Position numbers and translations under genes: made by a program. Below are positions 7,147 through 34,845 of a stretch of DNA of 38,741 nucleotides, piece by piece. Source of the stretch: Betaproteobacteria bacterium (lineage in GTDB: Bacteria; Pseudomonadota; Gammaproteobacteria; Burkholderiales; Burkholderiaceae); contig VGIH01000004.1 of the NCBI GenBank assembly GCA_016867965.1, forward strand, positions 1-38,741. Reading direction: 5' to 3'. The stretch's first letter is position 1. The number at the start of each line of letters is the position of its first letter. Below the pieces are notes generated by a model, which saw nothing but the letters and a program-made list of their open reading frames with translations, was not told where the DNA came from and made no database searches.

Positions 7147-7221
7147 ATGAATATTTTTGCATATTGATTATTTAAACTGATCTCTTGATGATAAGACGTT
7201 TTCAACTAACTATTGATCATC

Positions 7222-8037: not shown

Positions 8038-8038
8038 C

Positions 8039-9184: not shown

Positions 9185-9277
9185 GATAAGTTTTATAAGG
9201 TAAATACAACTGACTTTATCGGACAGACTAACGATTTGTCTATTATGAATGATCCTAACTGAACCCCAAACCCCAAG

Positions 9278-9979
9278 ATGAAACCAACTGTACTAGCCTT
9301 TGACGTATTTGGAACCGTGGTTGATTGGCATGGCTCGATTGCGGCTGAGGTCGCCCAACTCCTTCCTCAAGTTGACCCCATTGCTTTTGCAAGCGCCTGG
9401 CGATCCGGCTATAAGCCTGCTATGGCAAGAGTCCGTAGTGGCGAATTGGGCTGGACACGGATTGATGATTTGCATCGGATGATTTTGGATCAAGTACTAG
9501 TTGATCTAAAAATTGATCATCTAACCGAAACCCAAAAGAAGTACCTCAACCTCACCTGGCACCGATTAAAGCCATGGCCGGATTCAGTTCGCGGTTTAAC
9601 GCTTCTGAAGCAAGACTTTACGATCGTTACCCTGTCAAACGGTAATTTGGGTCTTCTTGCCAATATGGCAAAAAATGGCGGTTTACCTTGGGATCTGATT
9701 CTCTCCGCTGAGGTGTTTCGGCACTACAAGCCCGATCCAGAAACGTATCTGGGCGTTTGCCAAACTTTTGACCTAAAGCCCCAAGACGTGATGCTAGTTG
9801 CTGCCCACAAAGACGATTTAGAGGCCGCTCACGCGTGTGGCTTGCAAACGGCATTTATTGAACGGCCTACTGAATTTGGACCGAGGGTGGTTCGAGCGGA
9901 CCTTGGGCGAGAGTCCTGGACTACATACCATGCCAAAGACTTTATCGATCTGGCAGCCCAACTTAAAGCTAGATCATAA
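9278..9979 (+). CDS. Haloacid dehalogenase, type II (HAD superfamily)
   Basis: AFDVFGTVVDWHGS, TLSNGNLGLL, HYKPDPETYLG, MLVAAHKDDLEAA motifs. Confidence 0.88.
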   Translation: MKPTVLAFDVFGTVVDWHGSIAAEVAQLLPQVDPIAFASAWRSGYKPAMARVRSGELGWTRIDDLHRMILDQVLVDLKIDHLTETQKKYLNLTWHRLKPWPDSVRGLTLLKQDFTIVTLSNGNLGLLANMAKNGGLPWDLILSAEVFRHYKPDPETYLGVCQTFDLKPQDVMLVAAHKDDLEAAHACGLQTAFIERPTEFGPRVVRADLGRESWTTYHAKDFIDLAAQLKARS

Positions 9980-10047
9980 AATAATGATCTAGATCAAACG
10001 CAAACCCAAATAAAAGATCATACTAAGTAAAATTACCGGAGGATCCT

Positions 10048-10323
10048 ATGGTAAACCTAACGATTGAAATTGAGAACCTAAAATGCGGTGGTTGCGAGAA
10101 CACCATCGTCAAGGGCCTAAAAGCAATTACGGGAGTTCAAACAGTCACGGTCGATCATGCAAACAGAGCCGTTGTGCTGGATGCAGACTCTAATTTACGT
10201 CAGCAGATTGTCGACAAGTTGCTGAGTATGGGCTACCCAGAAAAGGGATCTGTAGCGGGTCTTGATAAAGGCATTGCGACCGCTAAATCATTCGTAAGTT
10301 GCGCGATCGGCCGAATCAGCTAA
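10048..10323 (+). CDS. Heavy-metal-associated (HMA) domain protein / copper chaperone-like
   Basis: 91 aa, N-terminal ferredoxin-like HMA fold with KCGGCENTI metal-binding motif; RBS ggagg upstream. Confidence 0.82.
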   Translation: MVNLTIEIENLKCGGCENTIVKGLKAITGVQTVTVDHANRAVVLDADSNLRQQIVDKLLSMGYPEKGSVAGLDKGIATAKSFVSCAIGRIS

Positions 10324-10352
10324 GCCATTCATCAATCGGCTAAGATGCCAGA

Positions 10353-10613
10353 ATGTTTCATATTGACATCATTGGCTACTTAGCTGCGTTACTGACCACT
10401 TTCTCCTTTCTTGTTCAGGCCATTCAATCTTGGAGAACAAGAGACCTCTCAGGCATCTCGGTGGGTATGTACAGCATGTTTACCCTTGGGGTGGGATTGT
10501 GGCTCATTTATGGGATTGTGATTGAGAGTTGGCCCTTAATTGTGACCAATGCCTTAACTTTCCTGTTTGCCCTGAGCATCTTGCTCATGAAACTGAAACA
10601 AATGTCAAAATAG
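10353..10613 (+). CDS. SemiSWEET-type sugar transporter (MtN3/saliva family)
   Basis: 86 aa, 3 TM; IGYLAALLTTFSFLVQAIQSWRTRDLSGIS. Confidence 0.87.
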   Translation: MFHIDIIGYLAALLTTFSFLVQAIQSWRTRDLSGISVGMYSMFTLGVGLWLIYGIVIESWPLIVTNALTFLFALSILLMKLKQMSK

Positions 10614-10647
10614 CAGAATACTCGATGTATTCTGTTTAGACTCTACG

Positions 10648-11433
10648 ATGAAAATTCTTAAAATGCTTGCACTCTTGATCGTATTGGCGATAGCAATTGC
10701 CATTGGTGTTGCGTATTACACGGTCAGCAAATTAGATGGGTATGTGAAGAGCTCGATCGAGGACTATGCCACTCAATCTCTTGGTACTAAGGTAACCGTT
10801 GGCGAGGTTTACCTTAGTCTACGTCAAACCCAAGCAACGATTCGTAATCTTGAGGTTGCCAATCCCCCAGGTTATGAGGGAGGTCACGCATTTAAAGCGG
10901 GACTGATTGAGATTCAACTTAATCCGAAGGAGTCTAAATTTGATTCGGTTGTCATTGATCGAGTGCTCTTAAGTCAGCCTAGCGTGCAGTATGTCAAAAC
11001 GAAAGATTCTGACAATCTATCGGTTTTGCAAAATAACGCAAAGCAATACAGCTCGACCAATCAAAAAGAAGATACTAAAAGTAAAGCTGGTAAAGCTGGA
11101 GATTCTAAGCAGCCACGCATCCTAATTAAGCAGTTTGATATTCAGGGGGCGGATCTGGTTTATCGGGACATGCGAATCTTAGGCACAAGCGTTAATCTCA
11201 AGTTAGATGACATTCAAATCACTAATATTGATACTGGTAAGGATGGGGCGGGAACTAAAGAAGCGGTTGGTAAAATTATCGATGCCATTATTCCCGTGGT
11301 GAAGAATGCTGCGCTCAAAAGCGTCAACACCTATTTGAATATCGCTACGGATACATTACGGAATGTCACCGACAGTGCGCAGCAATACGGTAAGGATGCC
11401 ATTACTAATATCAAAAAGTTGTTTCAAAAATAA
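10648..11433 (+). CDS. AsmA-like / DUF748-type envelope protein
   Basis: N-terminal TM, LGTKVTVGEVYLSL...TIRNLEVANPPGYEGGHAFKAGLIEIQL. Confidence 0.65.
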   Translation: MKILKMLALLIVLAIAIAIGVAYYTVSKLDGYVKSSIEDYATQSLGTKVTVGEVYLSLRQTQATIRNLEVANPPGYEGGHAFKAGLIEIQLNPKESKFDSVVIDRVLLSQPSVQYVKTKDSDNLSVLQNNAKQYSSTNQKEDTKSKAGKAGDSKQPRILIKQFDIQGADLVYRDMRILGTSVNLKLDDIQITNIDTGKDGAGTKEAVGKIIDAIIPVVKNAALKSVNTYLNIATDTLRNVTDSAQQYGKDAITNIKKLFQK

Positions 11434-11447
11434 TTCGTTAATAACTC

Positions 11448-12497
11448 ATGACTCTCAATGCATATAACGGCCGCCTGACCTCACTCTCCCACGGAGGGGG
11501 ATGCGGCTGCAAAATTGCGCCTGGCGTCTTAAGTGATATATTGCAAGCCTCACCTCTCAAAATGATTCCACCAGCTTTGTTGGCGGGCTCAGAAAATAAT
11601 GAGGATGCAGCGGTTTATCAAATTAATGATCATCAGGCGATTGTCGCCACTACGGATTTCTTTATGCCAATTGTCGATGATCCCTTTGACTTTGGTCGAA
11701 TTGCAGCTACCAATGCGATTTCAGACATCTATGCGATGGGCGCTCAGCCCTTATTTGCACTTGCATTACTCGGTATGCCAATTAATGTATTACCCCTGGA
11801 GGTGATTCAGAAGATCATCGCAGGCGGGGAGTCGGTATGCCGAAGCGCGGGTATTCCGATTGCTGGTGGGCATTCCATTGATACCGTTGAGCCCATCTAT
11901 GGCTTGGTGGCGATTGGCATTGTTGATCCAGCCAACTTAAAACGCAATAGCGGTGCTCAAGCAGGAGACGTGATTATTTTGAGCAAACCCCTCGGAGTCG
12001 GTATTTTGAGTGCCGCTCTAAAGAAAGAGCGTTTGTCAGCTAAGGGATATGAGTCAATGGTTGCCTATACAACGCAGCTGAATCAGCCTGGCATTGCGCT
12101 CTCGAAGATGCCACAAGTTCATGCTTTGACGGATGTCACGGGCTTTGGCTTGGCAGGACATCTCTTAGAGATGAGTCGAGGGGCAAACTTAAGAGCCAAT
12201 TTGAATTGGCGTGATATTCCAGTAATTGCCGAGGCAGTTGAGTTTGTTAAAGACGATATCTATACCGGTGCCTCAACCCGAAATTGGCAAGCGTATGGCG
12301 GGGAAGTGTCGTTTAGTTCAGATGTCCAATCCTGGCAACAGCATTTAATGACCGATCCGCAAACCAGTGGCGGGTTACTCATTGCCTGCGCACCTGAGGC
12401 CAAGGACCAGGTTCTAGAGTTGCTCCATCGCTCGGGGTTCCATGAGGCGATGGCGATTGGCCATTTTGGGAGTGGTCAAGGCCTTACCATGGCCTAG
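11448..12497 (+). CDS. selD: Selenide, water dikinase (Cys form)
   Basis: LTSLSHGGGCGCKIAPGVLSDIL catalytic motif, TTDFFMPIVDDPFDFGRIAATNAISDIYAMGAQP. Confidence 0.95.
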   Translation: MTLNAYNGRLTSLSHGGGCGCKIAPGVLSDILQASPLKMIPPALLAGSENNEDAAVYQINDHQAIVATTDFFMPIVDDPFDFGRIAATNAISDIYAMGAQPLFALALLGMPINVLPLEVIQKIIAGGESVCRSAGIPIAGGHSIDTVEPIYGLVAIGIVDPANLKRNSGAQAGDVIILSKPLGVGILSAALKKERLSAKGYESMVAYTTQLNQPGIALSKMPQVHALTDVTGFGLAGHLLEMSRGANLRANLNWRDIPVIAEAVEFVKDDIYTGASTRNWQAYGGEVSFSSDVQSWQQHLMTDPQTSGGLLIACAPEAKDQVLELLHRSGFHEAMAIGHFGSGQGLTMA

Positions 12498-12580
12498 GAA
12501 CGAGGCAGGGTCTGGCTTTTACCAATTGCCCCAAAAGTGGCTACAATCAAATCATTACATATTAGAGTAAAGGTTTTACC

Positions 12581-12718
12581 ATGAAAAATCAAAGTTTTGC
12601 AGCGTGCTTTCAGTCCTTCATGCAAAGCATCAAGGTTTCCCCGATGAAGCGGGGAGAATGGTATTTGCAACTCATGATCGATAAGCGTGATGAGCGCTTG
12701 CGTAAAAAAATCTATTAA
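12581..12718 (+). CDS. Small hypothetical protein, 45 aa (not in supplied ORF track)
   Basis: ATG...TAA read by eye: MKNQSFAACFQSFMQSIKVSPMKRGEWYLQLMIDKRDERLRKKIY; purine-rich stretch (agagtaaagg) upstream. Confidence 0.45.
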   Translation: MKNQSFAACFQSFMQSIKVSPMKRGEWYLQLMIDKRDERLRKKIY

Positions 12719-12733
12719 TGTTGTTCTGATCGA

Positions 12734-13375
12734 ATGCGATCAATCATGACCCGATGGGGCACATACTTGGCTGTGTGCCTTTTTGTTTTACCCATCGGCG
12801 TATCAGCAGCGGGTCTTGCCGATGTGGTTGGTGAGGGACAGATCCGTTTTCTGAAAACCAAGCCCGATCCCAATTCATACACCTATGAATCGAAGGTAAC
12901 CATCCTAGAGACTAGTCTTGATTCTGGTTTGGTACAAATTCAGACCTGTCATAAAAAATTAGATCCAATTCGGAAGGTAGTCATTTTGTTTAACAAGGAC
13001 CGTATCCGAGATATTCAAGTTCGGACCATGGATGGTATTGCGATGGCTGAAGTCAAAGATAATCGCGTCACCCTAAGTGAGGTGCAAAAAGGTGGATCGA
13101 TTTGCATTGATTTACAGTCTAAGGCGCTGGATTCACTCGGTAATGGTCTCTATCAACTCAATGCTGGCCCTTTGATGCGCAGACTCTTTGATGGCTATTT
13201 ACCCATGACCGCAAACATGAAGTTCTCTTGGCCAGATAAGCTGCTTGCCGTTCAAGAAACTAAACCAGCGAGTCAAGATGGCGTTGATATTAAGTCCGCT
13301 AATGATGGTCTGGAGATGGACTTAGTGTTTGCCGGAAAAATGACAGCGCAGATTTTGCTAAAGCGCTCCGATTAA
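12734..13375 (+). CDS. Hypothetical exported protein
   Basis: 213 aa with signal peptide ending GVSAAG; no confident family. Confidence 0.6.
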   Translation: MRSIMTRWGTYLAVCLFVLPIGVSAAGLADVVGEGQIRFLKTKPDPNSYTYESKVTILETSLDSGLVQIQTCHKKLDPIRKVVILFNKDRIRDIQVRTMDGIAMAEVKDNRVTLSEVQKGGSICIDLQSKALDSLGNGLYQLNAGPLMRRLFDGYLPMTANMKFSWPDKLLAVQETKPASQDGVDIKSANDGLEMDLVFAGKMTAQILLKRSD

Positions 13376-13378
13376 GGT

Positions 13379-13678
13379 CTAGAGCTTTTCACAGCGGTAT
13401 TGCTCAGCGCCGATGGCTAAGCGTGATTCGCTCTGAATCAATTGTGCAATGGATGCCTTGACATCCCCGACCTTGCAGTTTTCATCGAAGTAGCTGACTA
13501 GACCAAGGCTTCCACAAAAGCGCAACTGGCGATCACCAATCTTCATGGTTGATTGCTGCAAAACCATTACTACTTTTTTGCTGGAGTCGTTCTCAGGAAC
13601 GCAGTTCCAAGTGGTGTAATCGGCCTGACTACATGCCATAAGAGCAAAAATAAGGGGTAGGAAGAAAAAAAAGCGCAT
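13379..13678 (-). CDS. Small putative lipoprotein
   Basis: 99 aa; lipobox-like LIFALMAC. Confidence 0.6.
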   Translation of the reverse strand: MRFFFFLPLIFALMACSQADYTTWNCVPENDSSKKVVMVLQQSTMKIGDRQLRFCGSLGLVSYFDENCKVGDVKASIAQLIQSESRLAIGAEQYRCEKL

Positions 13679-13713
13679 TTACAGGACAATAGAAATTACA
13701 TTCGAGCTATTGT

Positions 13714-14124
13714 ATGAGCCAAACTCTGTTACCGCTAACCCTGTTCTATGATGGTGCCTGTCCACTATGTCAGGCAGAGATTCTTTATTTGCAAACCCGT
13801 AATCAACAGCAATTACTTCAATTTGTCGATGTCAATAGCAGTGCATTCGATCCAGGGCGCGTTGGCGTTTCGTGTCAGGCTGCGCTCGATCAGATGGTTG
13901 GGCAAATTGAGGGGCAATCCCCGATTCATGGTGTCCCAGTCTTTGCAGAGGCCTATCGGCGCGCTAATTTACCGATCTTGGCTTGGATTTTTTCAAGAAA
14001 AACTCTTAGACCCATCTTGAATCTGGCATATCGAATCTTTGCAAAAAATCGCCATGCAATATCAGGCGCCATCGGCCCCTTTGCTTTAAAACTGGTTCAG
14101 CGAATTAATCAATCACCTCGATGA
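13714..14124 (+). CDS. DCC-family thiol-disulfide oxidoreductase (DUF393)
   Basis: LFYDGACPLCQAEILYL CxxC motif. Confidence 0.87.
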   Translation: MSQTLLPLTLFYDGACPLCQAEILYLQTRNQQQLLQFVDVNSSAFDPGRVGVSCQAALDQMVGQIEGQSPIHGVPVFAEAYRRANLPILAWIFSRKTLRPILNLAYRIFAKNRHAISGAIGPFALKLVQRINQSPR

Positions 14125-18507: not shown

Positions 18508-18957
18508 ATGGTAAAGCTAACCGTGAACGGCAAGGCAAGATCGGTTGATGTCGATCCTAACACCCCATTATTGTGGGTGATTCGTGAGCAAATCGGATTA
18601 ACTGGAACCAAGTATGGATGCGGTATCGCGGCATGCGGTTCCTGTACCGTATTGGTAGATGGTGCAGCAATTCGTTCCTGCAACTTGCCCGTTAGTGCTG
18701 CAGCAGGTAAAAAGATTGAGACGGTTGAGAGTTTGGCCCAAGGCGGCAAGCTCAGCAAAGTTCAGCAGGCATTTGTTGAAAAACAAGCCCCGCAATGCGG
18801 CTATTGCCAGACCGGCATGGTGATGGCAGTCACCGCTTTACTAAGAAGCAATCCAAAGCCAAGCGATGCCGATATTGATGCGGCAGTAACCAATATTTGT
18901 CGCTGTGGAACCTTTCAAGAAGTTCGGGCTGCGGTTCATGCCGCCGCTAAGGCTTAA
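18508..18957 (+). CDS. iorA: (2Fe-2S)-binding small subunit, isoquinoline 1-oxidoreductase-like Mo hydroxylase
   Basis: KYGCGIAACGSCTVLVDG and CGYCQTGM ... NICRCGTF double 2Fe-2S motifs. Confidence 0.88.
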   Translation: MVKLTVNGKARSVDVDPNTPLLWVIREQIGLTGTKYGCGIAACGSCTVLVDGAAIRSCNLPVSAAAGKKIETVESLAQGGKLSKVQQAFVEKQAPQCGYCQTGMVMAVTALLRSNPKPSDADIDAAVTNICRCGTFQEVRAAVHAAAKA

Positions 18958-18967
18958 GGAGAATACG

Positions 18968-21178
18968 ATGAATGCACCTGTACCAAATTTATCTCGCCGC
19001 CAATTCATTGTCGGATCTAGTGCAGTTTCTGCTGGATTAGCAATCGGTTTGGAGTTCCCAGCCGTGATTGGAAGTGCTCAAGCCTCCACTGCGCAAGCGG
19101 CCATGCCCCCAGAAATCGGGGTCTGGGTGATGATTCAGCCAAATGACACCGTGATTATTCGTGTAGTCCGCTCTGAAATGGGTCAGGGCACCATTACTGG
19201 CTTAGCTCAATTATTAGCCGAGGAGTTGGAGTGCGACTGGAAAAAAATTGCGATTGATTATCCAACGCCCGGAGAGAGCCTAAAACGTAAAGGTGTCTGG
19301 GGATCATTCTCTACTGGCGGTAGCCGAGGAATTCGAACCTCTGAGGATTACGTTCGCAAAGGCGGTGCTACAGCGCGCATTATGTTAGTTCAAGCTGCCG
19401 CTAACCAATGGGGCGTCCCTGCCGCAGAGTGTTTGGTTTCAAACAGCGTTATTACCCATCAAGCTAGCGGTCGATCGACCAGTTTCGGAAAGGTAGCTGC
19501 TGCTGCAGCGAAATTGCCAGTACCGGACGCCAAAACCATTGAGCTGAAAGATCCAAAGCGCTGGAAAGTGATTGGTAAGTCCATGGATCGCATAGATAGC
19601 TTAGCCGATAAGGTTACTGGCAAACAAGTCTATGCAATCGATCTGCAAATGCCTGGCATGCTAGTTGCTACGATTAAAGAATGCCCTGTATTTGGCGGTA
19701 AATTAAAGAGCTTTGATGCCACTAAAGTGGCCAGTATGAAGGGCGTGAAGAAGGTAGTACAGGTCAGTGATACCTCTGTCGCCGTGGTAGCCGATACCTT
19801 CTGGCAGGCGAAGGTCGCCATGAATCAGTTGCCCATTGTTTGGGACGAGGGCGCCAATGCCAATGTTCAACAGGCTGATATTCTGAAGCGTCTTGATGAA
19901 GGATTAAATGCTAACGAGACTTTTGTTGGTAATGCGAATGGCGACTTCAAAAAAGCAGCATCGGACGCCTCAAAGAAAATTGAAGCGAAATTCTTTTATC
20001 CATTCTTAAACCACGCTCCGATGGAGCCCATGAATGCAACTGCGTTGTGGACTGCGGATAAATGCCGTGCCTGGGTCCCCACACAAGATGGTGAGGCATC
20101 TCTTGCAGCCGTGATCGCAGCTTCTGGTCTAACAGCAGATAAATGTGATGTAATCAAAGTTAATCTTGGTGGTGGATTTGGACGACGCGGGGCGTTTCAG
20201 GATTACACAACCCAAGTGGTCAATATTGCAAAACAAATGCCTGGTACCCCCATTAAGCTCATTTGGACGCGTGAAGAGGATATGACCCAGGGTCGTTACC
20301 ATCCCGTCATGATGTGCCGGATGACGGGCACGTTTGATGATAAGAAAAATTTGACCGGTATCCATATGCGCCTCTCAGGGCAATCGATTCTTGCAACTGT
20401 TCGCCCCGCTGTTGTTGCTCAAAATAAAGGCATGGATCCATTAGTTTTCCAAGGTGTGGCAAAGGGTGGAGAGCATGGTATTAGCTATGATTTTCCGAAC
20501 TTGACGATTGACCACGCAATGCGTAACACGCATGTGCCACCCGGTTTCTGGCGAGGCGTCAACATTAACCAAAACGCCATTTTTATGGAATGCTTTATGG
20601 ATGAACTGGCAGAATACGCTGGAATGGATCCCGTTGAATTTAGACGCAAGTATTCAGCAAATTACCCACGAAACTTAGCTGTTCTCAATGCGGTGGCCGA
20701 TCGAATTGGTTGGACAAAACCTGCGCCCGCTGGTGTATTCCGAGGAATAGCGCAGCAAAAATCATTTGGTAGTTTTGTGGCGGCTGCTTGTGAAATCTCG
20801 GTCACCGATGGCAATAAGATCAAGATACATCGGATCGTTGCTGCTACGGATCCTGGTTATGCGGTTAATCCGGCGCAAATTGAGCGTCAGGTTTCTGGAT
20901 CCTTTGTTTATGGCCTCTCGGCATTGTTTGAAGAAGAGTGCACCGTCAAAAATGGGCGCATCGAGCAAACCAATTTTGATACCTTTGGGTCGATTCGTTT
21001 GCGGCAAATGCCAAAAGTAGAAACGATCATTATTCAAGGTGGCGGAAAAGAGTGGGGTGGAATTGGTGAACCCACCATTTCTGTTGCTGCTCCAGCAGTA
21101 CTCAATGCCTATTACCGTGCAACCGGTAAGCGCGTTCGTACCGTACCACTTAAGAATAGCGGTATCACCCTTGTGTAA
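18968..21178 (+). CDS. iorB: Molybdopterin-binding large subunit, isoquinoline 1-oxidoreductase/xanthine dehydrogenase family, Tat-exported
   Basis: Tat signal NLSRRQFIVGSSAVSAGLAIG; NLGGGFGRRGAFQDYTTQ; GKEWGGIGEPTISVAAPAVLNA. Confidence 0.88.
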   Translation: MNAPVPNLSRRQFIVGSSAVSAGLAIGLEFPAVIGSAQASTAQAAMPPEIGVWVMIQPNDTVIIRVVRSEMGQGTITGLAQLLAEELECDWKKIAIDYPTPGESLKRKGVWGSFSTGGSRGIRTSEDYVRKGGATARIMLVQAAANQWGVPAAECLVSNSVITHQASGRSTSFGKVAAAAAKLPVPDAKTIELKDPKRWKVIGKSMDRIDSLADKVTGKQVYAIDLQMPGMLVATIKECPVFGGKLKSFDATKVASMKGVKKVVQVSDTSVAVVADTFWQAKVAMNQLPIVWDEGANANVQQADILKRLDEGLNANETFVGNANGDFKKAASDASKKIEAKFFYPFLNHAPMEPMNATALWTADKCRAWVPTQDGEASLAAVIAASGLTADKCDVIKVNLGGGFGRRGAFQDYTTQVVNIAKQMPGTPIKLIWTREEDMTQGRYHPVMMCRMTGTFDDKKNLTGIHMRLSGQSILATVRPAVVAQNKGMDPLVFQGVAKGGEHGISYDFPNLTIDHAMRNTHVPPGFWRGVNINQNAIFMECFMDELAEYAGMDPVEFRRKYSANYPRNLAVLNAVADRIGWTKPAPAGVFRGIAQQKSFGSFVAAACEISVTDGNKIKIHRIVAATDPGYAVNPAQIERQVSGSFVYGLSALFEEECTVKNGRIEQTNFDTFGSIRLRQMPKVETIIIQGGGKEWGGIGEPTISVAAPAVLNAYYRATGKRVRTVPLKNSGITLV

Positions 21179-21181
21179 TTG

Positions 21182-21619
21182 ATGCGTGTTGGATTTAAGC
21201 TAGTCGTTTGTGCGTTACTAGCTTTTCCACACCCGCTGTATGCACAACTGGTTTGGGATGGCGATGCCATCCCAAATTCATTAAGTGGGCAGCCTGGTGA
21301 TCCCACTCGAGGAAAATCCATTGTCGTAAGTCGTCAAACGGGTTTGTGTATTTTGTGCCACAGCGTGCCATCTACCGAGGAGCGATTTCAGGGAAATTTA
21401 GCACCCGATTTGCGCATCAGTGTAGGCAATTTAAATGCCGCTCAACTTCGTGCGCGTCTAGTCGATGCCTCACGTTCTCAGCCCAACACGATTATGCCGT
21501 CTTACTATAGAATCGATCATCTTCATCGTGTTGCACCATCATTTGAAGGTAAAACGGTATTAAGTGGTCAAGACATTGAGGATGTGGTTGCCTATTTGCT
21601 AACAATTAAAACACCATGA
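21182..21619 (+). CDS. soxX: SoxX-like monohaem cytochrome c
   Basis: Signal peptide; GLCILCH haem site; NTIMPSYYR axial Met region; VVAYLLTIK. Confidence 0.85.
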   Translation: MRVGFKLVVCALLAFPHPLYAQLVWDGDAIPNSLSGQPGDPTRGKSIVVSRQTGLCILCHSVPSTEERFQGNLAPDLRISVGNLNAAQLRARLVDASRSQPNTIMPSYYRIDHLHRVAPSFEGKTVLSGQDIEDVVAYLLTIKTP

Positions 21620-22059
21620 GTTCACGTCGTTTATTTATTTCCTCCATGACGGCCATTTGTCTGAGCCCTTGGCATCGAGCACAAGCATCGACAAGCGATG
21701 CTCAGCAAGTTATTTCAAAAATCATTGGAAATCAGTCGGTCAAAACTGGAAGAATTTATTTTGAGCTTCCGCCTTTGGTTGAGAATGGCAATTTAGTTGC
21801 CGTGAAGTGTGCAGTTCAAAGCCCAATGACCGCCAATGATTACGTGAAAGTTATTCATATGATTGCCGAGGGCAATCCACTACCCAATGTCGTGAGTTGC
21901 TATTTCACACCACTATCAGGGAAGGCGGAGTTTAGTACGCGGATTCGTTTAGCAGATTCGCAGCGAGTGTGGGTCTTAGCTCAAATGAGTAATGGCGAGT
22001 TTTGGCGAACTTCTGCAGACACGGTAGTCACTTTATCTGCTTGTACGGAGATGATATGA
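21616..22059 (+). CDS. soxY: SoxY-like protein with atypical C-terminus
   Basis: Tat-like MSSRRLFISS; IRLADSQRVWVLAQMSNGEFWRTSADTVVTLSACTEMI (no GGCGG); located between soxX and soxZ. Confidence 0.78.
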   Translation: MSSRRLFISSMTAICLSPWHRAQASTSDAQQVISKIIGNQSVKTGRIYFELPPLVENGNLVAVKCAVQSPMTANDYVKVIHMIAEGNPLPNVVSCYFTPLSGKAEFSTRIRLADSQRVWVLAQMSNGEFWRTSADTVVTLSACTEMI

Positions 22060-22385
22060 GTCGCTCTTCACGTGCCGTTGTTACCTTTTCAAACCAAGTA
22101 AAGCGCGGCGAATTATTCTCAATCCGCGCTATTGTTCAACACGATATGGAGTCTGGCTTTCGTCATACAGAACAGGGGGTAAGAGTGCCGCGCGATATTA
22201 TTCGTGAGTTTGTTTGCACTTACAATGGCCGACCGGTATTTCGAGCTGATCTTCATCCAGGAATTGGATCAAACCCGGTTTTTATCTTTGATGCTAAAGC
22301 CGATCAGTCCGGGGTAATTGAATGTAGATGGTCGGGGGATAACGATTATTTAACCGTACTTCAACAGCCAATTACCGTCCTATGA
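22056..22385 (+). CDS. soxZ: SoxZ-like protein
   Basis: MESGFRHTEQGVRVPRDIIREFVCTYNGRPVFRADLHPGIGSNPVFIFDAKADQSGVIECRWSGDND; ATGA overlap with soxY. Confidence 0.88.
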   Translation: MSRSSRAVVTFSNQVKRGELFSIRAIVQHDMESGFRHTEQGVRVPRDIIREFVCTYNGRPVFRADLHPGIGSNPVFIFDAKADQSGVIECRWSGDNDYLTVLQQPITVL

Positions 22386-23140
22386 TTCAAGCGTTTGGTT
22401 CGCTTGCCATCAGTTTTTTTCTTTTCACCCATGCTGCAGTAGCAGATTCTCGCCAATCGGCATATCAGCTCTTATCGCCAACCAATCAAGCGATGCAAAA
22501 TGATATGAATCTAAACCCAGCACTTTTTGCGATCATGGATGGCGAGGCGCTTTGGCAAGAAAAATCACAGGCTAATGGCAAATCGTGCGCCTCATGTCAT
22601 GGGGATGTCAAACATTCGATGCTGGGCGTTTTTGCAACCTTCCCAAAAATCATTCATCAGAAATTACAGAATGTAGAGGGTCAGATCAATGCCTGCCGTA
22701 CTCGCCATCAACATTTAACTGTATTTGCATATGAGAGTAAGCCTATGCTGGCTCTTAGTACGCTGATTGCTTTTCAATCCCGCGGCTTACCTATACAAGC
22801 CGCTTCGATTGGTAGTGTTAAAAATGATTATGAGTCTGGTAAAAATCTATATTTTCAACGCATTGGCCAGCTTAATTTGTCTTGTGCACAGTGTCATGAT
22901 GATCGGGCTGGTTTAAAACTTGGAGGGAGTGTTATTCCGCAGGCGCATCCTACCGGCTACCCCATTTATCGGATTGAGTGGCAGGGAATGGGATCGTTGC
23001 AACGCCGTTTGCGAAACTGCCTATCGGGAGTCCGAGCTGAGCCCTATGCTTATGGATCTAAAGAGTTAGTACAAATTGAGCTCTATTTAATGCATCGTGC
23101 GAATGGCATGATCATAGAAAGCCCAGGAATTCGTCCTTAG
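22382..23140 (+). CDS. soxA: SoxA-like dihaem cytochrome c
   Basis: CASCH and CAQCH haem motifs; conserved RNCLSGVRAEPYAYGSKELVQIELYL with Cys ligand. Confidence 0.88.
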   Translation: MIQAFGSLAISFFLFTHAAVADSRQSAYQLLSPTNQAMQNDMNLNPALFAIMDGEALWQEKSQANGKSCASCHGDVKHSMLGVFATFPKIIHQKLQNVEGQINACRTRHQHLTVFAYESKPMLALSTLIAFQSRGLPIQAASIGSVKNDYESGKNLYFQRIGQLNLSCAQCHDDRAGLKLGGSVIPQAHPTGYPIYRIEWQGMGSLQRRLRNCLSGVRAEPYAYGSKELVQIELYLMHRANGMIIESPGIRP

Positions 23141-24087
23141 GAATCATTCTTTCCGTATTTAACAGCAATTACCTCTGCTATGATGGAAACCGCAATTTCA
23201 GGAGGCGTTAACGCTCCGATGGCTAGACCAACGGGCCCGTGTAGTTGGTTTAATTGTTCTAAAGAAACATTAAATTCGCGGAGTCGATCCTTGCGTTTCT
23301 GCGTATTGGTATGGCTTCCCAATGCCCCAATATAAAACGCCTGAGATTGCAGGGCATCAATTAAGGCTAAATCATCAATCTTAGGATCATGAGTAAGTGC
23401 CACAATCGCAGTGTGCGAATCAATACCTAATTCTTGCATGACATCATCTGGCATTCCTTGAATAAATTGAATTTCATCTGACTTTATTCCTTCAGAGTAC
23501 TCTTCCCGAGGATCAATGACCGTGACATCAAAGTCCGATGTTAAGGCAAAGTGGGCTAAACAAAGCGAGAGTTGGCCGGCACCAATAATTAACATGCGCC
23601 AGCGTGGGCCATAGATAGTCTGCATCATCTCGCTCGAGAATAGAAACTGATCAGAATGACTCCCCACAGTTAAACTCGATTCACCAGTGGATAAATTAAC
23701 CCGACGTAACACAATGGAGCGTTTTCTTATCCTGCCCATGATCTCTTCAAGAATGAAAACTTCGGGACGTGGTTCAACCAAGAGCTGTAACGTTCCTCCA
23801 CAAGGCAGCCCAAAACGAACAGCCTCATCTCTACTAATACCGTATTTGACTAATTCAGGTGTTGTCCGAGTCAAAATCTCACTTTGCACACGCCGAATTA
23901 GATCGTCTTCCACACAGCCTCCGGAGACAGAACCAACGACCTGCCCATCTTCTCGAATCGCGAGCCATGAACCGACTGGGCGGGGAGAGGATCCCCAGGT
24001 TTGAACAACTGTAGCCAACGCTACGCGCTTTCCATCGTGCAGCCAACCAATTGCAGCTTGTAAGACTTGATAATCAGTGCTATTCAT
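23137..24087 (-). CDS. XdhC/CoxI family Mo-cofactor maturation protein
   Basis: TWGSSPRPVGSWLAIREDGQVVGSVSGGCVEDDL; Rossmann-like C-terminal domain (MLIIGAGQLS...). Confidence 0.9.
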   Translation of the reverse strand: MNSTDYQVLQAAIGWLHDGKRVALATVVQTWGSSPRPVGSWLAIREDGQVVGSVSGGCVEDDLIRRVQSEILTRTTPELVKYGISRDEAVRFGLPCGGTLQLLVEPRPEVFILEEIMGRIRKRSIVLRRVNLSTGESSLTVGSHSDQFLFSSEMMQTIYGPRWRMLIIGAGQLSLCLAHFALTSDFDVTVIDPREEYSEGIKSDEIQFIQGMPDDVMQELGIDSHTAIVALTHDPKIDDLALIDALQSQAFYIGALGSHTNTQKRKDRLREFNVSLEQLNQLHGPVGLAIGALTPPEIAVSIIAEVIAVKYGKNDS

Positions 24088-24150: not shown

Positions 24151-24753
24151 ATGCCCAAAATTGCCATTCTTCTTCTTGCCGCTGGCCAAGGGGCTCGATT
24201 GGGTGGTTACCCCAAAGGACTCTTAATCAAGGACGGGATTCCTTTAATTAGCCGATTTTGGACAGAGGCTACGCAATTAGAACTTTGTGAAGCAATTACT
24301 GTATTAGGTTTTTATGCAGATCGGTTAAAACCATTGGCTGAGCAATATTCCAAAATAGTTATCAATCATCACCCGGAATTAGGCCAATCGTCGTCTGTAC
24401 GAATTGGACTTGAGGCCTTGCAATCAGACTACGAATACCTGTTGATTGGTCTGGTTGATCAACCCCAAATTACTGTAAGTGAGTTACAAACGTTAATGAT
24501 TTATACCAAGAGACTTCGGGGGAAAATTAAAGCAATTATTCCTTGTTATCAGGGGCGACGCGGTAATCCATTATTACTCACACGCAGTGCGGTCAAGGCG
24601 GTTTTGGCAACCCCACACCAAGGATGCCGAGAGTGGCTCGATCACAATCCTGATCATGTTTTATTCATCGACATGCCCCACGAATCATATATTCGAGATG
24701 TCGATACGATGACTGATCTTGAGTATGAGAATCTTTCGATGAGTCATTCATAA
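24151..24753 (+). CDS. Molybdenum cofactor cytidylyltransferase-like NTP transferase (MocA family)
   Basis: ILLLAAGQGARLGGYPKGLL; GLVDQPQITV; CYQGRRGNPLLL. Confidence 0.82.
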   Translation: MPKIAILLLAAGQGARLGGYPKGLLIKDGIPLISRFWTEATQLELCEAITVLGFYADRLKPLAEQYSKIVINHHPELGQSSSVRIGLEALQSDYEYLLIGLVDQPQITVSELQTLMIYTKRLRGKIKAIIPCYQGRRGNPLLLTRSAVKAVLATPHQGCREWLDHNPDHVLFIDMPHESYIRDVDTMTDLEYENLSMSHS

Positions 24754-25901: not shown

Positions 25902-26837
25902 TTAAGAGATACGTTGATAGTATAGATTTTGAGGGTGGTTGGCCTCAGCAAAAAACATCCACCGCTCGCTCATTAGGCCACAGTAATGAATTAAAAGTAC
26001 GGCCGGAATCAGGCCATAGGAAGATGATTGTGCGGCATAAATTAAAAGAAGAATTGGAATCAGATAGGCGCCGAAAAAAATAATCTTTCGTAAATTACTC
26101 AATACAGTTTCCGTTTGATTGTGAAAGAATTCACGGGTATTAAAACTGCCACCCATTAGCCCCATAGACGTTTGCCGAATTGATACTTGACGAATGCCAA
26201 TGGCTGAGTTGAGAGTTGATTTTGGCCTTAAATTCTTATTGCGTTTCCAAATCGTTAATTTAATCGTTAAGCAAACAAATAGTAGCAAGATGCCTAAATG
26301 ACAAATTAATTGAAAGCTTGGTTGCAAGATCGTATCAGGCCAAAATAACAGTAAGGATCCAAGAAGCAACCATCCGGAGGTTAATCCCAGCGCAATGAAA
26401 TTAACCATGGTGAGTGGATGTGCCCACTCTTGGATGAATCGAATGCATTGATAAATTTGGGCTGTGCATACCCATAAAGCAATCGACAAGAGAATCAGAA
26501 TAGGCCAAATGAGATTATTTGACTGGTTTGTGATTGAAAAAAACCATGCTAATGCAGCAGCAGCCATAAATAGAGGAAGAACAATTACTTCGCGGGAAAG
26601 CCACGACGTTCTCCACATATGAGCGGCACGCCACGCTCTTTCAGGGTGGCCGAGATGAAAAAAAGATGCAATTAAACTCAATCCCAATAAAACAATGCCG
26701 AAAGGCAGGGCTAAGAAACCTAAAAAATCATTTGGTAATGCATTGCCAATTAATTTTAGTGTTGCAATAAAAAATATTAGGCCCTGAGCCATTCCCGCTA
26801 ACGTAGTAAAAAAAACTAAGGAAAAATTGGGTTGCAT
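25902..26837 (-). CDS. soeC: SoeC/DmsC-type membrane anchor subunit
   Basis: Polytopic; FFHLGHPERAWRAAHMWRTSWLSREVIVLPLF. Confidence 0.8.
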   Translation of the reverse strand: MQPNFSLVFFTTLAGMAQGLIFFIATLKLIGNALPNDFLGFLALPFGIVLLGLSLIASFFHLGHPERAWRAAHMWRTSWLSREVIVLPLFMAAAALAWFFSITNQSNNLIWPILILLSIALWVCTAQIYQCIRFIQEWAHPLTMVNFIALGLTSGWLLLGSLLLFWPDTILQPSFQLICHLGILLLFVCLTIKLTIWKRNKNLRPKSTLNSAIGIRQVSIRQTSMGLMGGSFNTREFFHNQTETVLSNLRKIIFFGAYLIPILLLIYAAQSSSYGLIPAVLLIHYCGLMSERWMFFAEANHPQNLYYQRIS

Positions 26838-27490
26838 TAATTCTCTTCCTTCACAGCAGCTATGGTTTCAGTAATGGAGCGGGGTAGATAGTGGTTGGCG
26901 GGGATCGTTTCCCATTCAGGCATGAGGGCATAGCCACCACGGTTAGCGATTGTTTTACTGGCCTCTGACTCTGGGTCATGTACATCGCCAAAGATTCGTG
27001 CGCTGGTTGGGCAGGCCATAACGCAGGCGGGCTTGCGTTCTGCCTCGGGTAAGGTTTCGCTGTAAATACGATCAACACATAAGGTGCATTTGGTCATAAC
27101 CTGACGTTCTTCATCCAACTCGCGGGCGCCATAAGGACATGCCCAGGAACAATATTTACACCCAATGCACTTGTCGTAGTCGACTAAGACGATCCCGTCT
27201 TCAGCGCGTTTGTAACTGGCACCGGTAGGGCATACCGGCACACAAGGAGGCTCCTCACAATGCAAACATGACTTGGGAAAGTGGATGGTTTGGGTATTTG
27301 GAAAAGAACCCGTTTCATAGGTCTGAACACGATTGAAGAAGGTTCCAGTCGGATTTTCGCCATACGCATGTAAATCAGTGAGTGGTCCGGCAGACCCTTG
27401 TGTATTCCATTCTTTACATGATGTGACGCAGGCATGGCAGCCTACGCAAACATTCAAATCAATAACAAGGGCAAGTTGTTTATTTTTCAT
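26837..27490 (-). CDS. soeB: SoeB-type 4Fe-4S ferredoxin subunit
   Basis: Four Cys clusters (CVGCHACVTSC, CLHCEEPPCVPVCP, CIGCKYCSWACP, CTLCVDRI...); start reassigned from 27514 to MKNKQLALVIDL. Confidence 0.85.
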   Translation of the reverse strand: MKNKQLALVIDLNVCVGCHACVTSCKEWNTQGSAGPLTDLHAYGENPTGTFFNRVQTYETGSFPNTQTIHFPKSCLHCEEPPCVPVCPTGASYKRAEDGIVLVDYDKCIGCKYCSWACPYGARELDEERQVMTKCTLCVDRIYSETLPEAERKPACVMACPTSARIFGDVHDPESEASKTIANRGGYALMPEWETIPANHYLPRSITETIAAVKEEN

Positions 27491-27491
27491 C

Positions 27492-30371
27492 TTACGATTC
27501 CTGTTTAAGAGCAATCATGCCTGGAACGGTATAGGCTTTAAACTGAGGCCAAGTTTCGGAGGATGTTGTTTGATCATCAGCTGAAAGTATTTTGACCCGA
27601 ACATCGTACCAACCCGCTTGACCAGTGATAGGATCTGAATTACTTACCCTAAATTCCCCGAATGGTAATTCTTCACTGATTAAGTGATTCAACAAAAACC
27701 CTTTTTTGGATTCATTTGCATTTGGGTCAAGACTCCAGGCAGACTCTGCTTTGCCGATTGCATTCCATGTCCATACAGTGCCCGGATCAACGGCTTCAGA
27801 GTGCCGCGCCATGCATTTAACCTTACCCCACTGTGACTCAACCCACATCCAGGCACCATCCTCAATCTGATGTTCCTGAGCTGTTTTGGTGTTGATAAAC
27901 AGATAATTGTGACTATGAATTTGTCGTAACCACGCATTTTGTGAGTCCCATGAGTGATACATAGCCATAGGTCTTTGCGTAATTGCATTGAGAGGGAATT
28001 CGTTGAGATTAGTTACCTCCTCTTCCAACGGCGCATACCAGAATGGTAGAGGATCAAAGTAGCGCAAGATGCGCTCTTTTAGGTGAGCCGGAGGCGTTCT
28101 TCCGGGCCGCGAACCTTTGGCTGCCAATCTAAATTTTTGCAAAATATCAGAGTAGATATTTATCATTATTGGATCATTATCTTTTCTTAAAGCGTTTTCT
28201 TTTGCAAATTTAAGATAAGAATGATTCCAATTGCGCATATATTGATGTTCAATCGGCATTTGATAATGAAATACGCAATTATTCTTGGCGTATTCATCCC
28301 ATTGATTTGGATTGGGTTCGCCGCGAAGACTTTTCTCACCATTTTTTCCTCTCCAGCCAGCAAGAAAACCAATACCATCTACGAGATCTGTCTGATAATT
28401 AACTATAAAATCGGTATACCCTGAAAATTTGCGTTGACCGTCTGCAGTGGTAAAGGCTGGAAATTTCAAACGAGAAGCAAGCTCTACAATCACTTCTTGA
28501 AATGGTTTGCAATTACCCGTTGGTGGTAAAACTGGAATTCGCACAGAGTCTACTGGCCCATCAAACTCGGAGATGGGTCGATCCAACATACTCATAACGT
28601 CATGACGTTCTAAATAGGTCGTGTCAGGCAATACGAGGTCTGCAAAGTTGACCATTTCAGATTGAAACGCATCGCATACCACCAGAAAAGGGATTTTGAA
28701 TTCACCATCATCACCTTTGGTATTTAATAATGTTCGAACTTCAGTGGTGTTCATGGTCGAGTTCCACGACATGTTTGCCATGAATATCATGAGAGTATCA
28801 ATTGAATAGGGATCCCCCTTCACCGCGTTGGTAATGACGTTATGCATAAGACCATGGATTGCGAGAGGATGTTCCCAAGAGAAAGCCTTATCAATACGTA
28901 ATGGCGCGCCATCTTCATTTAGAGACAAATCCTCTGGTTGCGTGGGCCATCCCAATGGAGGTTTTCCAAGTGGCGTGTTGGGCTTAATGTCAGAGTTACA
29001 TGAGGGCGGCTTAACATTTGGTTGACGAGGAAATGGTGCCTTATGTCTAAATCCACCGGGTCGATCAATGGTTCCCAGTAGCGACATAAGGACTGCCAAA
29101 CCCCGCACAGTTTGGAAGCCGTTAGAGTGTGCAGAAAGTCCACGCATGGCATGGAATGCAACAGGGCGACCAACTACAGAATCGTGTGTTTTGCCCCAAG
29201 TATCGGTCCATGGAATGGGCAACGAAAATTCTTGCTGAAATGCGGCATGACCGATTTCATCCGCTAACTTACAAATCCGCTTTGCTGAAATTCCGGTAAT
29301 GGCAGAGGCCCACTCTGGTGTGCAATCTTTAACTTGGCGTCGTAAAAGCTCAAAAGCAGGCGCCACTCGCTTTCCTGCATGGGGTCCTAAGCCCATCGTA
29401 AATTCACCGGTTAAAGCAGGGCGAACATTCTCTTGATAGCAGGGTTGCGCGCTATTTGTTTGTAGGTCCCAAACGTATTTATTGTGTGGAAGGTTAGGAT
29501 TAAGTGGATCAAAATTTGGATCAAATAAAAACAAGCCTTCCTCAGGACCGGGGTCCAAACATACGAGTTGACCTGAGTTTGTGTAGCGCTCAAGAAATGG
29601 CGCATCATATTGCTGATTTGCAATTAATTGATGCATGAGCGCCATAAACAGAGCGCCATCAGTACCTGGTTTAATTGGAATCCATTCGTCTGCAATCGCG
29701 GAGTATCCGGTGCGTACTGGATTGATCGAGATAAAGCGGCCACCAGCACGTTTAAATTTAGATAATGCGATTTTCATGGGATTGCTATGATGGTCTTCAG
29801 CTGTCCCAATCATGATGAAAAGTTTTGCGTGGTCTAAATCAGGGCCGCCGAACTCCCAAAAACTCCCACCAATTGTGTAGATCATCCCGGCCGCCATATT
29901 GACCGAACAGAAACCACCATGCGCTGCATAATTGGGAGTGCCAAATTGCCGAGCGAACAAACCGGTTAGGGCTTGCATTTGATCGCGCCCAGTAAACAAA
30001 GCAAATTTTTTCGGATCAGTGGCCCGAATTTTTGCGAGCCGTTCAGTCAAAATGCCAAACGCCGTTTCCCAGTCAATCACTTCAAATTCTCCGGCGCCTC
30101 GGTCGCTCCCTTTCTTTCTCAATAGAGGTTGAGTAATTCGTGCCGGCGATTTTTGTTTCATAATGCCCGACGAACCTTTTGCGCAAATTACGCCCTGATT
30201 GAGAGGGTGCTCAGGGTTGCCATCGATATACACCAGTTCCCCATCTCGCAAATGCGCTCTGATACCACAACGACAAGCGCACATATAGCAGGTTGTCTTT
30301 TTTACCTCATCAATCGGTGAAATCTTATGAATTGGATCATGAACGGGTTTGCTAGAGAATGGATTAAACAT
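27492..30371 (-). CDS. soeA: SoeA-type molybdopterin (bis-MGD) sulfite dehydrogenase catalytic subunit, cytoplasmic
   Basis: 959 aa; CYMCACRCGIRAHLRDGELVYIDGNPEHPLNQGVICAKG 4Fe-4S; AAHGGFCSVNMAAG putative Mo-Cys; no Tat signal; operon with SoeB/SoeC. Confidence 0.78.
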   Translation of the reverse strand: MFNPFSSKPVHDPIHKISPIDEVKKTTCYMCACRCGIRAHLRDGELVYIDGNPEHPLNQGVICAKGSSGIMKQKSPARITQPLLRKKGSDRGAGEFEVIDWETAFGILTERLAKIRATDPKKFALFTGRDQMQALTGLFARQFGTPNYAAHGGFCSVNMAAGMIYTIGGSFWEFGGPDLDHAKLFIMIGTAEDHHSNPMKIALSKFKRAGGRFISINPVRTGYSAIADEWIPIKPGTDGALFMALMHQLIANQQYDAPFLERYTNSGQLVCLDPGPEEGLFLFDPNFDPLNPNLPHNKYVWDLQTNSAQPCYQENVRPALTGEFTMGLGPHAGKRVAPAFELLRRQVKDCTPEWASAITGISAKRICKLADEIGHAAFQQEFSLPIPWTDTWGKTHDSVVGRPVAFHAMRGLSAHSNGFQTVRGLAVLMSLLGTIDRPGGFRHKAPFPRQPNVKPPSCNSDIKPNTPLGKPPLGWPTQPEDLSLNEDGAPLRIDKAFSWEHPLAIHGLMHNVITNAVKGDPYSIDTLMIFMANMSWNSTMNTTEVRTLLNTKGDDGEFKIPFLVVCDAFQSEMVNFADLVLPDTTYLERHDVMSMLDRPISEFDGPVDSVRIPVLPPTGNCKPFQEVIVELASRLKFPAFTTADGQRKFSGYTDFIVNYQTDLVDGIGFLAGWRGKNGEKSLRGEPNPNQWDEYAKNNCVFHYQMPIEHQYMRNWNHSYLKFAKENALRKDNDPIMINIYSDILQKFRLAAKGSRPGRTPPAHLKERILRYFDPLPFWYAPLEEEVTNLNEFPLNAITQRPMAMYHSWDSQNAWLRQIHSHNYLFINTKTAQEHQIEDGAWMWVESQWGKVKCMARHSEAVDPGTVWTWNAIGKAESAWSLDPNANESKKGFLLNHLISEELPFGEFRVSNSDPITGQAGWYDVRVKILSADDQTTSSETWPQFKAYTVPGMIALKQES

Positions 30372-31423: not shown

Positions 31424-33097
31424 ATGTTAAGTGATATTGAAATCGCTCAAAAAGCAAGCATGAAAAAAATTGTCGAGATTGCAAAAAATCGACTTGGTAT
31501 TCCGGAGGAAGAGTTAATTCCCTATGGTCACTTCAAGGCTAAAGTATCCCTGTCTTACCTCGATAGTATTAAGAGTCGCAAACACGGAAAATTAATTCTG
31601 GTCACAGCCATTAGCCCAACGCCTGCGGGTGAGGGTAAGACAACCACCACCGTGGGTTTGGGTGATGGACTAAATCATATTGGCAAGAAGGCCATGATTT
31701 GCTTGAGAGAGCCCTCACTTGGACCGGTATTTGGTGTCAAGGGTGGGGCCGCTGGCGGTGGCTTTGCTCAGATTGTGCCGATGGAAGATATTAATCTGCA
31801 CTTCACAGGGGATTTCACGGCGATTGCTTTGGCTAACAATTTGCTGGCAGCTTTGATTGATAACCATATTTATCATGGTAATCAGCTAGGTATTGACGTG
31901 CGACGGATTCAGTGGAAGCGCGTGGTTGATATGAATGATCGAGCTTTACGCCAAATTAATGTTGGTTTGGGTGGACCTGGTAATGGCTTCCCGCGTGAAG
32001 ATGGATTTGATATTGTGGTGGCATCCGAGATCATGGCAATTTTCTGCCTAGCCAGTTCAGTTGAAGATCTAAAAAAACGGCTTGGAGAAATCGTGGTTGG
32101 CTATACCCGTGATCTTAAGCCTGTCCTCGCCAAGCAGTTAAATGCCCAAGGCGCAATGACAGTTCTTTTGAAGGATGCTTTAGCTCCCAATTTAGTGCAA
32201 ACCTTGGAAAATAACCCTGCCTTTGTACATGGTGGTCCATTCGCCAATATTGCCCATGGCTGTAATTCAGTAATCGCTACTCAAGCAGCACTCAAGTTGG
32301 CTGATTATGTGGTTACCGAGGCAGGCTTTGGTGCTGATTTAGGGGCAGAAAAATTTATTGACATTAAGTGCCGTAAATCAGGATTGCGACCTTCAGCTGC
32401 AGTAATTGTGGTGACAGTACGCGCAATGAAATACCACGGTGGCGCTGACTTAACATCACTGACAACCGAAAACCTCGATGCACTTGATAAAGGACTAGTT
32501 AATTTAGAGCGTCACGTTGAGAACATCACAAAAGTTTATAACTTGCCATGTGTTGTTTCTATCAATAAATTCTTAAGCGACACGCCCGCCGAAATTGAAA
32601 TGATCCGTACCCGGATGGAGAAATTAGGCGTGAAAATTGTGCTTGCCTCCCACTGGGCAGATGGTGGAAAGGGCGCATCTGAGCTTGCCAAAATCGTTGT
32701 TGATTTGTGTGAGAGCCAGGATAAAAAAATGCAGTTTGTTTATGAGGACGCCGATACACTTTGGGACAAAATCAATAAGATTGCCAAAAAGGTCTATCGC
32801 GCCAGTGAAGTTACAGCGGACTCAAAAATTCGGGCACAAATTCAAACATTGCAGGAACAAGGTTATGGCAATTACCCCGTATGCGTAGCCAAAACACAGA
32901 GTTCATTCTCAACCGACCCGAAACTTCGCGGTGCACCAGAAAATCATGTGATTACGATTCGTGAAGTTCGCCTTGCAGCAGGAGCTCAATTTATCGTCAT
33001 GATTTGTGGTGACATCATGACAATGCCTGGACTTCCAAAAGTTCCATCGGCCGATAAGATTGATTTTGTTGATGGTAAAGTCGTAGGTTTATTTTAA
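31424..33097 (+). CDS. fhs: Formate-tetrahydrofolate ligase
   Basis: [26 protein letters not shown]-binding; [35 protein letters not shown]. Confidence 0.96.
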
Positions 33098-33123
33098 TTT
33101 TATTGATTGCAAAGGAGAGGCAA

Positions 33124-34332: not shown

Positions 34333-34361
34333 GAAAAAATAACAATGAGGGTTGAATAATA

Positions 34362-34814
34362 ATGAGAGAACAGGTTGCAGAACTGATCTACAAAAGCTTT
34401 TTGACATTGGATGACCTCGATTTTGCTGGCTATATCAACTTATGCCATGCTGATTTTAATTACAAGATCGGGGCTTACAGCCCAGAAATTAGAAAGCAAA
34501 TGACTTGGCTTGAGGAATCTCGCGATTCCATGAAATTACTGTTTGAGAGTCTGCCTAAGCACAACAGTGATCACTCGCGTTTATCTCGGTTGGGTAATGT
34601 GTACCTGATGAATAAAGAGTCGAATGGAGATTGGTCGGCATTGACCTTCTTGCAAGTATTTCGTACCAGTTTAGACGGCGGCGCATCGGAGTTATTTGCC
34701 ATTGGAAAGATTAAGGACACCATACGAGAGGCTGATGGCGGCCTTAAATTATTGAATCGAGATATTCAACTTGAGACCAGAATGTTTGGTTTTGGGCATC
34801 ACATACCCTTCTAA
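34362..34814 (+). CDS. Ring-hydroxylating-type oxygenase beta subunit
   Basis: 150 aa cystatin-like beta-subunit pattern (YSPEIRKQMTWLEESRDSMKLLFESL; LTFLQVFRTSLDGG), follows alpha. Confidence 0.75.
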   Translation: MREQVAELIYKSFLTLDDLDFAGYINLCHADFNYKIGAYSPEIRKQMTWLEESRDSMKLLFESLPKHNSDHSRLSRLGNVYLMNKESNGDWSALTFLQVFRTSLDGGASELFAIGKIKDTIREADGGLKLLNRDIQLETRMFGFGHHIPF

Positions 34815-34845
34815 ACATTTTCTGCCAGATCAGATTGGTTAAACA

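Follow-up and report, generated by a model that had tools for sequence, protein, structure and literature searches.

A xanthine dehydrogenase-family molybdenum hydroxylase encoded in one conserved operon with SoxXYZA in Proteobacteria

A sox operon with a molybdenum hydroxylase

When sox genes lack soxB and soxCD and share their operon with a molybdenum hydroxylase, do they still serve ordinary thiosulfate oxidation, or do they form a module of their own? A six-gene operon (positions 18508 to 23140, plus strand; gene order iorA-iorB-soxX-soxY-soxZ-soxA) raises this question. It lies in a 38,741-nucleotide stretch of a Betaproteobacteria bacterium (GenBank assembly GCA_016867965.1, contig VGIH01000004.1), the whole of which is here called the window. 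The first two genes encode IorAB, a hydroxylase of the xanthine dehydrogenase (XDH) family, and the other four encode homologues of SoxX, SoxY, SoxZ and SoxA. Here, we show that the six genes make up a single unit, the iorAB-soxXYZA cassette, which is conserved and has spread horizontally. The partnership of the molybdenum enzyme and the Sox module is well supported; the chemistry proposed below is inferred.

A sequence-only reading of the window had remarked on the tight packing from iorA to soxA, and the coordinates agree: iorA and iorB are 10 bp apart, and soxX/soxY, soxY/soxZ and soxZ/soxA each overlap by 4 bp. Neither soxB nor soxCD was found in the window, so the same reading also holds at the level of the locus. 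The operon and the two genes that follow it are:

18508 to 18957, plus strand: iorA-like [2Fe-2S] subunit of the XDH-family molybdenum hydroxylase, 149 amino acids (Pfam Fer2_2, 1.6e-26; Fer2, 2.6e-09)
18968 to 21178, plus strand: iorB-like molybdenum cofactor subunit, 736 amino acids (Pfam MoCoBD_1 and MoCoBD_2)
21179 to 21619 (start at 21179 or 21182), plus strand: soxX-like monohaem cytochrome c (NCBIfam TIGR04485, 67.0 bits; cut-off, 61)
21616 to 22059, plus strand: soxY-like carrier with a SACTEMI arm replacing GGCGG (Pfam SoxY, 6.3e-25)
22056 to 22385, plus strand: soxZ-like partner of SoxY, its ATG at 22056 overlapping the soxY stop (Pfam SoxZ, 6.9e-22)
22382 to 23140, plus strand: soxA-like cytochrome c (NCBIfam TIGR04484, 203.2 bits; cut-off, 110)
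23137 to 24087, minus strand: convergent gene for an XdhC-family molybdenum cofactor maturation factor (Pfam XdhC_C, 2e-35; XdhC_CoxI)
24151 to 24753, plus strand: MocA-like molybdenum cofactor nucleotidyltransferase (Pfam NTP_transf_3; best NCBIfam fit, molybdenum cofactor cytidylyltransferase)

Conservation of the cassette across genomes

When one genome of each species was scanned with a SoxA alignment, at least 592 stretches were confirmed, and the best 80 loci, chosen by SoxA similarity alone, were inspected. They span Polynucleobacter, Zwartia, Sheuella, Polaromonas, Duganella, Rhodoplanes, Xanthobacteraceae, Roseomonas, and others among the Beta- and Alphaproteobacteria. iorB stood beside soxXYZA in nearly all of these loci that had enough upstream sequence, and soxB was found in none of the 80. 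This neighborhood survey supports the earlier suggestion that a molybdenum enzyme of a different family and SoxXYZA form a conserved unit; a lack of linkage in relatives, which would have counted against it, was not what we saw, as the linkage is widely kept. Chance adjacency was rejected because the linkage is far beyond chance; it is ancient and selective. Many relatives also carry fccB (flavocytochrome c sulfide dehydrogenase; PF21706 and PF09242) in the operon, often accompanied, in alphaproteobacteria, by a small cytochrome.

Within the source genus, a strong match to SoxY with the AACIE arm described below was obtained in 26 of 37 genomes, and those inspected carry iorAB and soxXYZA together with few exceptions: L047 (genome G023), a copy broken by frameshifts in a genome whose fccB is also fragmentary, and L045 (G030), where soxXYZA was retained and iorAB lost. 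L106 likewise lacks iorAB at the locus. In most genomes of the genus the operon occupies one common site; in the window and in loci L085 and L086 it instead lies beside xdhC and mocA. Plasmids of Methylobacterium, Neorhizobium galegae, and Roseomonas marmotae also bear the cassette, their soxX and soxA annotated with ordinary sulfur oxidation names and one SoxY still called a thiosulfate carrier. At a further locus (L025), only soxYZ follows iorAB, and the SoxA of that genome is encoded at another place. Because this locus keeps IorAB and SoxYZ without soxXA, we take these to be the core pair, and it is probable that the two are obligate functional partners.

The SoxY arm changes with the partner enzyme

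The window SoxY retains the arm cysteine, but in place of the canonical GGCGG swinging arm it has SACTEMI, in which SACTE conforms to the A-C-x-E pattern of AACIE-type arms. The best model by far was NCBIfam TIGR04487 ("SoxY-related AACIE arm protein," SoxY_para_1), at 170.9 bits against a cut-off of 172, which was passed by the best matches of 23 of 61 relatives. The window protein fell well short of the true-SoxY model TIGR04488 (83.8 bits; cut-off, 125), and for the separate soxY and soxZ the quinoprotein-associated carrier model TIGR04557, which describes a fused SoxYZ, gave 48.2 and 33.4 bits (cut-off, 140). Among the best 80 loci, the three arm positions were occupied by A in 79, C in 80, and E in 79.

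Across all loci collected up to this comparison, iorB was nearby for 99 and soxB for 0 of the 114 SoxY with a non-GGCG arm, while soxB was nearby for 15 and iorB for 0 of the 20 with a GGCG arm; since the counts include close relatives and some genomes counted twice, they are not independent events. The non-GGCG loci without iorB were mostly contig ends or cases with fccB intervening or iorB more distant, and they also include two true losses of iorAB (L045 and L106) and three SoxY of another type. A separate, phylum-wide sample drawn by SoxY alone gave the same picture: SoxY with AACTEE, AACLIG, or SACIDG arms adjoin fccB/iorB, and those with GGCGG occur with soxB where found. The nearest GGCGG relatives adjoin soxB and never iorB. 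Arm and partner thus change together, with A-C-x-E replacing GGCGG wherever iorAB stands in for soxB.

Two loci (L061 and L065) contain a second, more divergent Sox cassette with SACFDAS and SSCWDGT arms and oppositely oriented iorAB. In G015, a genome without SoxB, this second cassette adjoins fccB.

In the SoxA tree, from which the L158 row was left out as a false short match, all 42 iorAB-linked rows fell on one side of a branch with support of 89/88 (not starred). The main IorB clade of 30 rows was entirely sox linked, and its sister clade was mixed. IorB distances correlated with SoxA, SoxY, and SoxX distances (r, 0.67 to 0.70). At L107 and L138, two tandem iorAB pairs precede a single soxXYZA-fccB, one pair belonging to the sister IorB clade.

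The cassette and canonical Sox in the same genomes

The source genome, a Polynucleobacter-like assembly of 1.98 Mb that is 96% complete, also encodes canonical Sox proteins. Canonical soxA-soxX-soxB lies on another contig, C94, where the contig end truncates the cluster, and two soxC-like genes lie on further contigs (C135 and C62). The assembly yielded no canonical soxY, probably owing to a gap. The absence of SoxB and SoxCD on which the sequence-only reading built is therefore true of the operon and not of the organism. That reading had also allowed that the cassette could be a recent duplicate of a canonical cluster elsewhere. The canonical genes are there, but the SoxA of the window shares only 29% identity with its canonical counterpart in the same genome and belongs to a separate clade, and a recent duplication was rejected on these grounds.

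With soxB, soxXA, and two soxC-like genes present elsewhere in the source genome, the cassette might be an accessory set of genes for ordinary thiosulfate oxidation, relying on SoxB and SoxCD from those other loci. We regard this as most improbable, given the low SoxA identity, the loss of the GGCGG arm, and the existence of closed genomes with the cassette and without SoxB. In B. diazoefficiens, moreover, a second soxY, which may or may not be of the A-C-x-E type, is dispensable for thiosulfate oxidation (PMC5748708). The cassette is present, and no SoxB was found, in four alphaproteobacterial genomes with a completeness rating of 100%: G725 and G626, both single contigs, and G712 and G491. 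In G725 and G491, the cassette SoxA is the sole SoxA of the genome. SoxB was likewise not found in G041 and G048, which also have the cassette. These genomes set the cassette apart from SoxB as a separate unit. Its recurrence, sometimes in genomes devoid of SoxB, makes the cassette look like a Sox-derived pathway in its own right that is as yet undescribed. The suggestion of such a pathway had been made from the window alone, and it stands insofar as SoxB-free genomes exist and no description of the module was found in the open literature; its SoxY family, on the other hand, has already been named.

Conserved catalytic residues and a proposed mechanism

IorAB has the features of an XDH-family enzyme: a [2Fe-2S] small subunit, molybdenum cofactor domains, a catalytic glutamate (in GGIGEP), and export by twin-arginine translocation (Tat), for which IorB carries an SRRQF signal (RRQF motif). 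GxGEP is kept in IorB relatives. SoxA retains two CxxCH motifs and the active-site cysteine in R-x-x-x-C, aligned with solved SoxA 1h31 and 2c1d, and SoxX retains CxxCH and an MP motif with the methionine ligand. The conservation of the SoxX methionine and SoxA cysteine-ligand regions claimed at first sight is thus real, and the locus encodes a SoxXA with the thiol-coupling active site of canonical Sox. Judged from their sequences, the catalytic residues of SoxA, SoxX, SoxY, and IorB are kept.

The cysteine of SoxY is, in canonical Sox, the site onto which SoxXA loads a reduced sulfur compound. Enzymes of the XDH family draw the oxygen for hydroxylation from water and pass electrons out via [2Fe-2S] clusters. 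We propose that the operon would encode a self-contained periplasmic redox module of Sox descent. Its SoxXA would act as the canonical one does, attaching a reduced sulfur or organosulfur substrate oxidatively to the cysteine of the SoxY arm. Exported IorAB might then hydroxylate the SoxYZ-bound group with water oxygen, or release it, a step performed canonically by SoxB and SoxCD. The cytochrome c pool would receive the electrons of SoxXA, of FccAB, and of IorAB, the last by way of its [2Fe-2S] clusters, and the neighboring XdhC and MocA may mature the molybdenum cofactor. Action of IorAB on a substrate bound to SoxY is a real possibility, which we adopt tentatively. The wider proposal, that an XDH-family enzyme using a substrate covalently bound to a carrier protein independently replaced SoxB/SoxCD and gave rise to a second Sox-type (organo)sulfur oxidation pathway in hundreds of proteobacterial genomes, is conceivable but more doubtful.

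Several observations weigh against this mechanism. We know of no XDH-family enzyme that acts on protein-bound or sulfur substrates, the usual targets being aldehydes and N-heterocycles. The co-divergence of IorB with the Sox proteins can stem from joint inheritance of linked genes alone. The two Polynucleobacter-type loci L045 and L106 have soxXYZA without iorAB, one of these genomes having a related IorAB elsewhere. Finally, flanking genes give no common substrate pathway in a Pfam tally of 107 open reading frames (ORFs); the sole recurring family, scattered TctC receptors (8 of 107), was taken as background.

The sequence-only reading had offered two roles for the Sox proteins, as bearers of a SoxY-conjugated substrate or with SoxXA as periplasmic electron acceptor of the hydroxylase. 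The closest solved protein to IorB is the large subunit of an aldehyde dehydrogenase (8gy3_C, 1.3e-70), and CxxCH, which would mark a haem domain of its own, was found in no sox-linked IorB examined. It is therefore conceivable that SoxXA simply receives the electrons of a dehydrogenase for aldehydes or N-heterocycles, replacing the multihaem cytochrome subunit of 8gy3, with SoxYZ as a passenger. However, unlinked IorABs do without SoxXA, and we assign this role little probability. The first of the two ideas fits better, because SoxYZ and not SoxXA stays with IorAB in L025, the arm cysteine and A-C-x-E are nearly invariant, and SoxA keeps its thiol-coupling active-site cysteine and other catalytic residues.

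Action on a SoxY-linked substrate has also to be set against protection or repair. XDH-family enzymes require a labile terminal Mo=S, and SoxXYZA, with FccAB, could restore this ligand in the periplasmic enzyme or scavenge thiosulfate or sulfide that inhibits it. A fused divergent SoxYZ beside pyrroloquinoline quinone (PQQ) methanol dehydrogenases, for which protection from thiosulfate has been suggested (PMC11237559), offers a precedent. Unlinked IorAB relatives of the same fold nevertheless have no Sox genes nearby, and protection leaves the full set of SoxA catalytic residues unexplained. To our knowledge, there is also no precedent for periplasmic resulfuration, and we consider this explanation quite unlikely.

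The frequent presence of fccAB in or beside the operon raises a further alternative, in which the first substrate of IorAB is an organic thiol or thione in solution (or its aldehyde product). Sulfide or sulfane would be freed, and FccAB and SoxXA would load this sulfur on SoxYZ for removal, SoxYZ acting downstream of IorAB and not as its substrate. One plasmid copy has mddA (methanethiol S-methyltransferase) and glutathione S-transferase genes nearby, and an alphaproteobacterial locus (L243) has a hydantoinase/oxoprolinase-like ORF upstream, beside iorA; both would suit such substrates, but none of these neighbors is conserved. fccB is absent from Polynucleobacter loci and from the entire genomes of G052 and G059, and a SoxY that only accepts freed sulfur would not be expected to have a consistently altered arm. 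On this evidence, we judge a soluble first substrate unlikely. The source genome has a separate fccB elsewhere and none at the window locus; FccB as an obligate partner was rejected for the source genus, and fccB was found both with and without the cassette. Desulfurization of ergothioneine or thiohydantoin was likewise rejected, as the single hydantoinase-like neighbor gains no backing from other loci or the open literature.

Other genes around the cassette

The XdhC arrangement of the window is also present in L085 and L086. In L243 (positions 2753 to 13889), the cassette is followed by a ModE-like regulator, an XdhC-MocA fusion, and moa genes. In the window, a ModE-like regulator with a substrate-binding domain lies beside a TupA-like tungstate-binding protein (6151 to 8037), placing genes of tungsten or molybdenum uptake near molybdenum enzymes, and selD (selenophosphate synthase; 11448 to 12497) lies 6 kb upstream of iorA, where it may serve either selenouridine or a selenium-dependent molybdenum hydroxylase. 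A three-gene operon on the minus strand (25902 to 30371) encodes a PhsA/dimethyl sulfoxide (DMSO) reductase-type molybdenum enzyme with no apparent Tat signal, a 4Fe-4S protein, and a DmsC-like anchor, and it looks like a cytoplasmic, SoeABC-like sulfite dehydrogenase; it does not adjoin the cassette in the close relative L086. On the plus strand, positions 31424 to 38455 contain genes for formate-tetrahydrofolate ligase, Rieske oxygenase alpha and beta subunits, a reductase, a Rieske ferredoxin, and SsuA/TauC-like ATP-binding cassette (ABC) transport proteins. This cluster resembles one for methanesulfonate monooxygenase with a sulfonate-type ABC transporter.

Implications for annotation and comparison with known systems

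Annotation of genomes and metagenomes takes soxXYZA as a sign of thiosulfate oxidation, and cassette genes would be so counted. The arm, the partner enzyme, and the absence of SoxB in some organisms argue against that call. Carriers of the module include Polynucleobacter, which is abundant in fresh water, and members of the Rhizobiales, culturable strains among them; plasmids carry it too. If IorAB does work on carrier-bound sulfur, this would be new chemistry for a large family of molybdenum enzymes.

A search of the open literature, subscription papers being outside it, yielded no account of the iorAB-soxXYZA module, of its partners, or of what it does. A Polynucleobacter paper lists Pnuc_1154-1157 among the sox genes as a cluster of its own, a molybdenum enzyme not being remarked on in the part concerned (PMC3308952). 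The SoxY arm family is already known from NCBIfam. TIGR04487 is the best model for SoxY of the window and its relatives, so the arm variant is a recognized family, but the model names one protein only and the window member scores 1 bit under its cut-off.

The cassette shares with canonical Sox (SoxXA, SoxYZ, SoxB, and SoxCD) homologous SoxXA and SoxYZ, the haem ligands, the active-site cysteine, and the arm cysteine. It differs in its A-C-x-E arm, in a SoxA of a separate clade, and in an operon where a molybdenum hydroxylase of another family takes the place of SoxB and SoxCD. The TIGR04557 carrier beside PQQ alcohol or methanol dehydrogenases is similar in that a divergent SoxYZ is tied to a periplasmic dehydrogenase of carbon metabolism. 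In that system, however, SoxY and SoxZ are fused and occur with SoxH and a rhodanese, whereas the window has separate SoxY and SoxZ with SoxXA and the molybdenum enzyme, and its relatives often have FccAB. FccAB/SoxEF, shared with the operons of many relatives, is missing from the window locus. Aldehyde dehydrogenase 8gy3 and isoquinoline oxidoreductase IorAB are, like the window enzyme, exported and built of a small [2Fe-2S] subunit and a molybdenum subunit; the window differs from them in having SoxXYZA and no multihaem cytochrome subunit.

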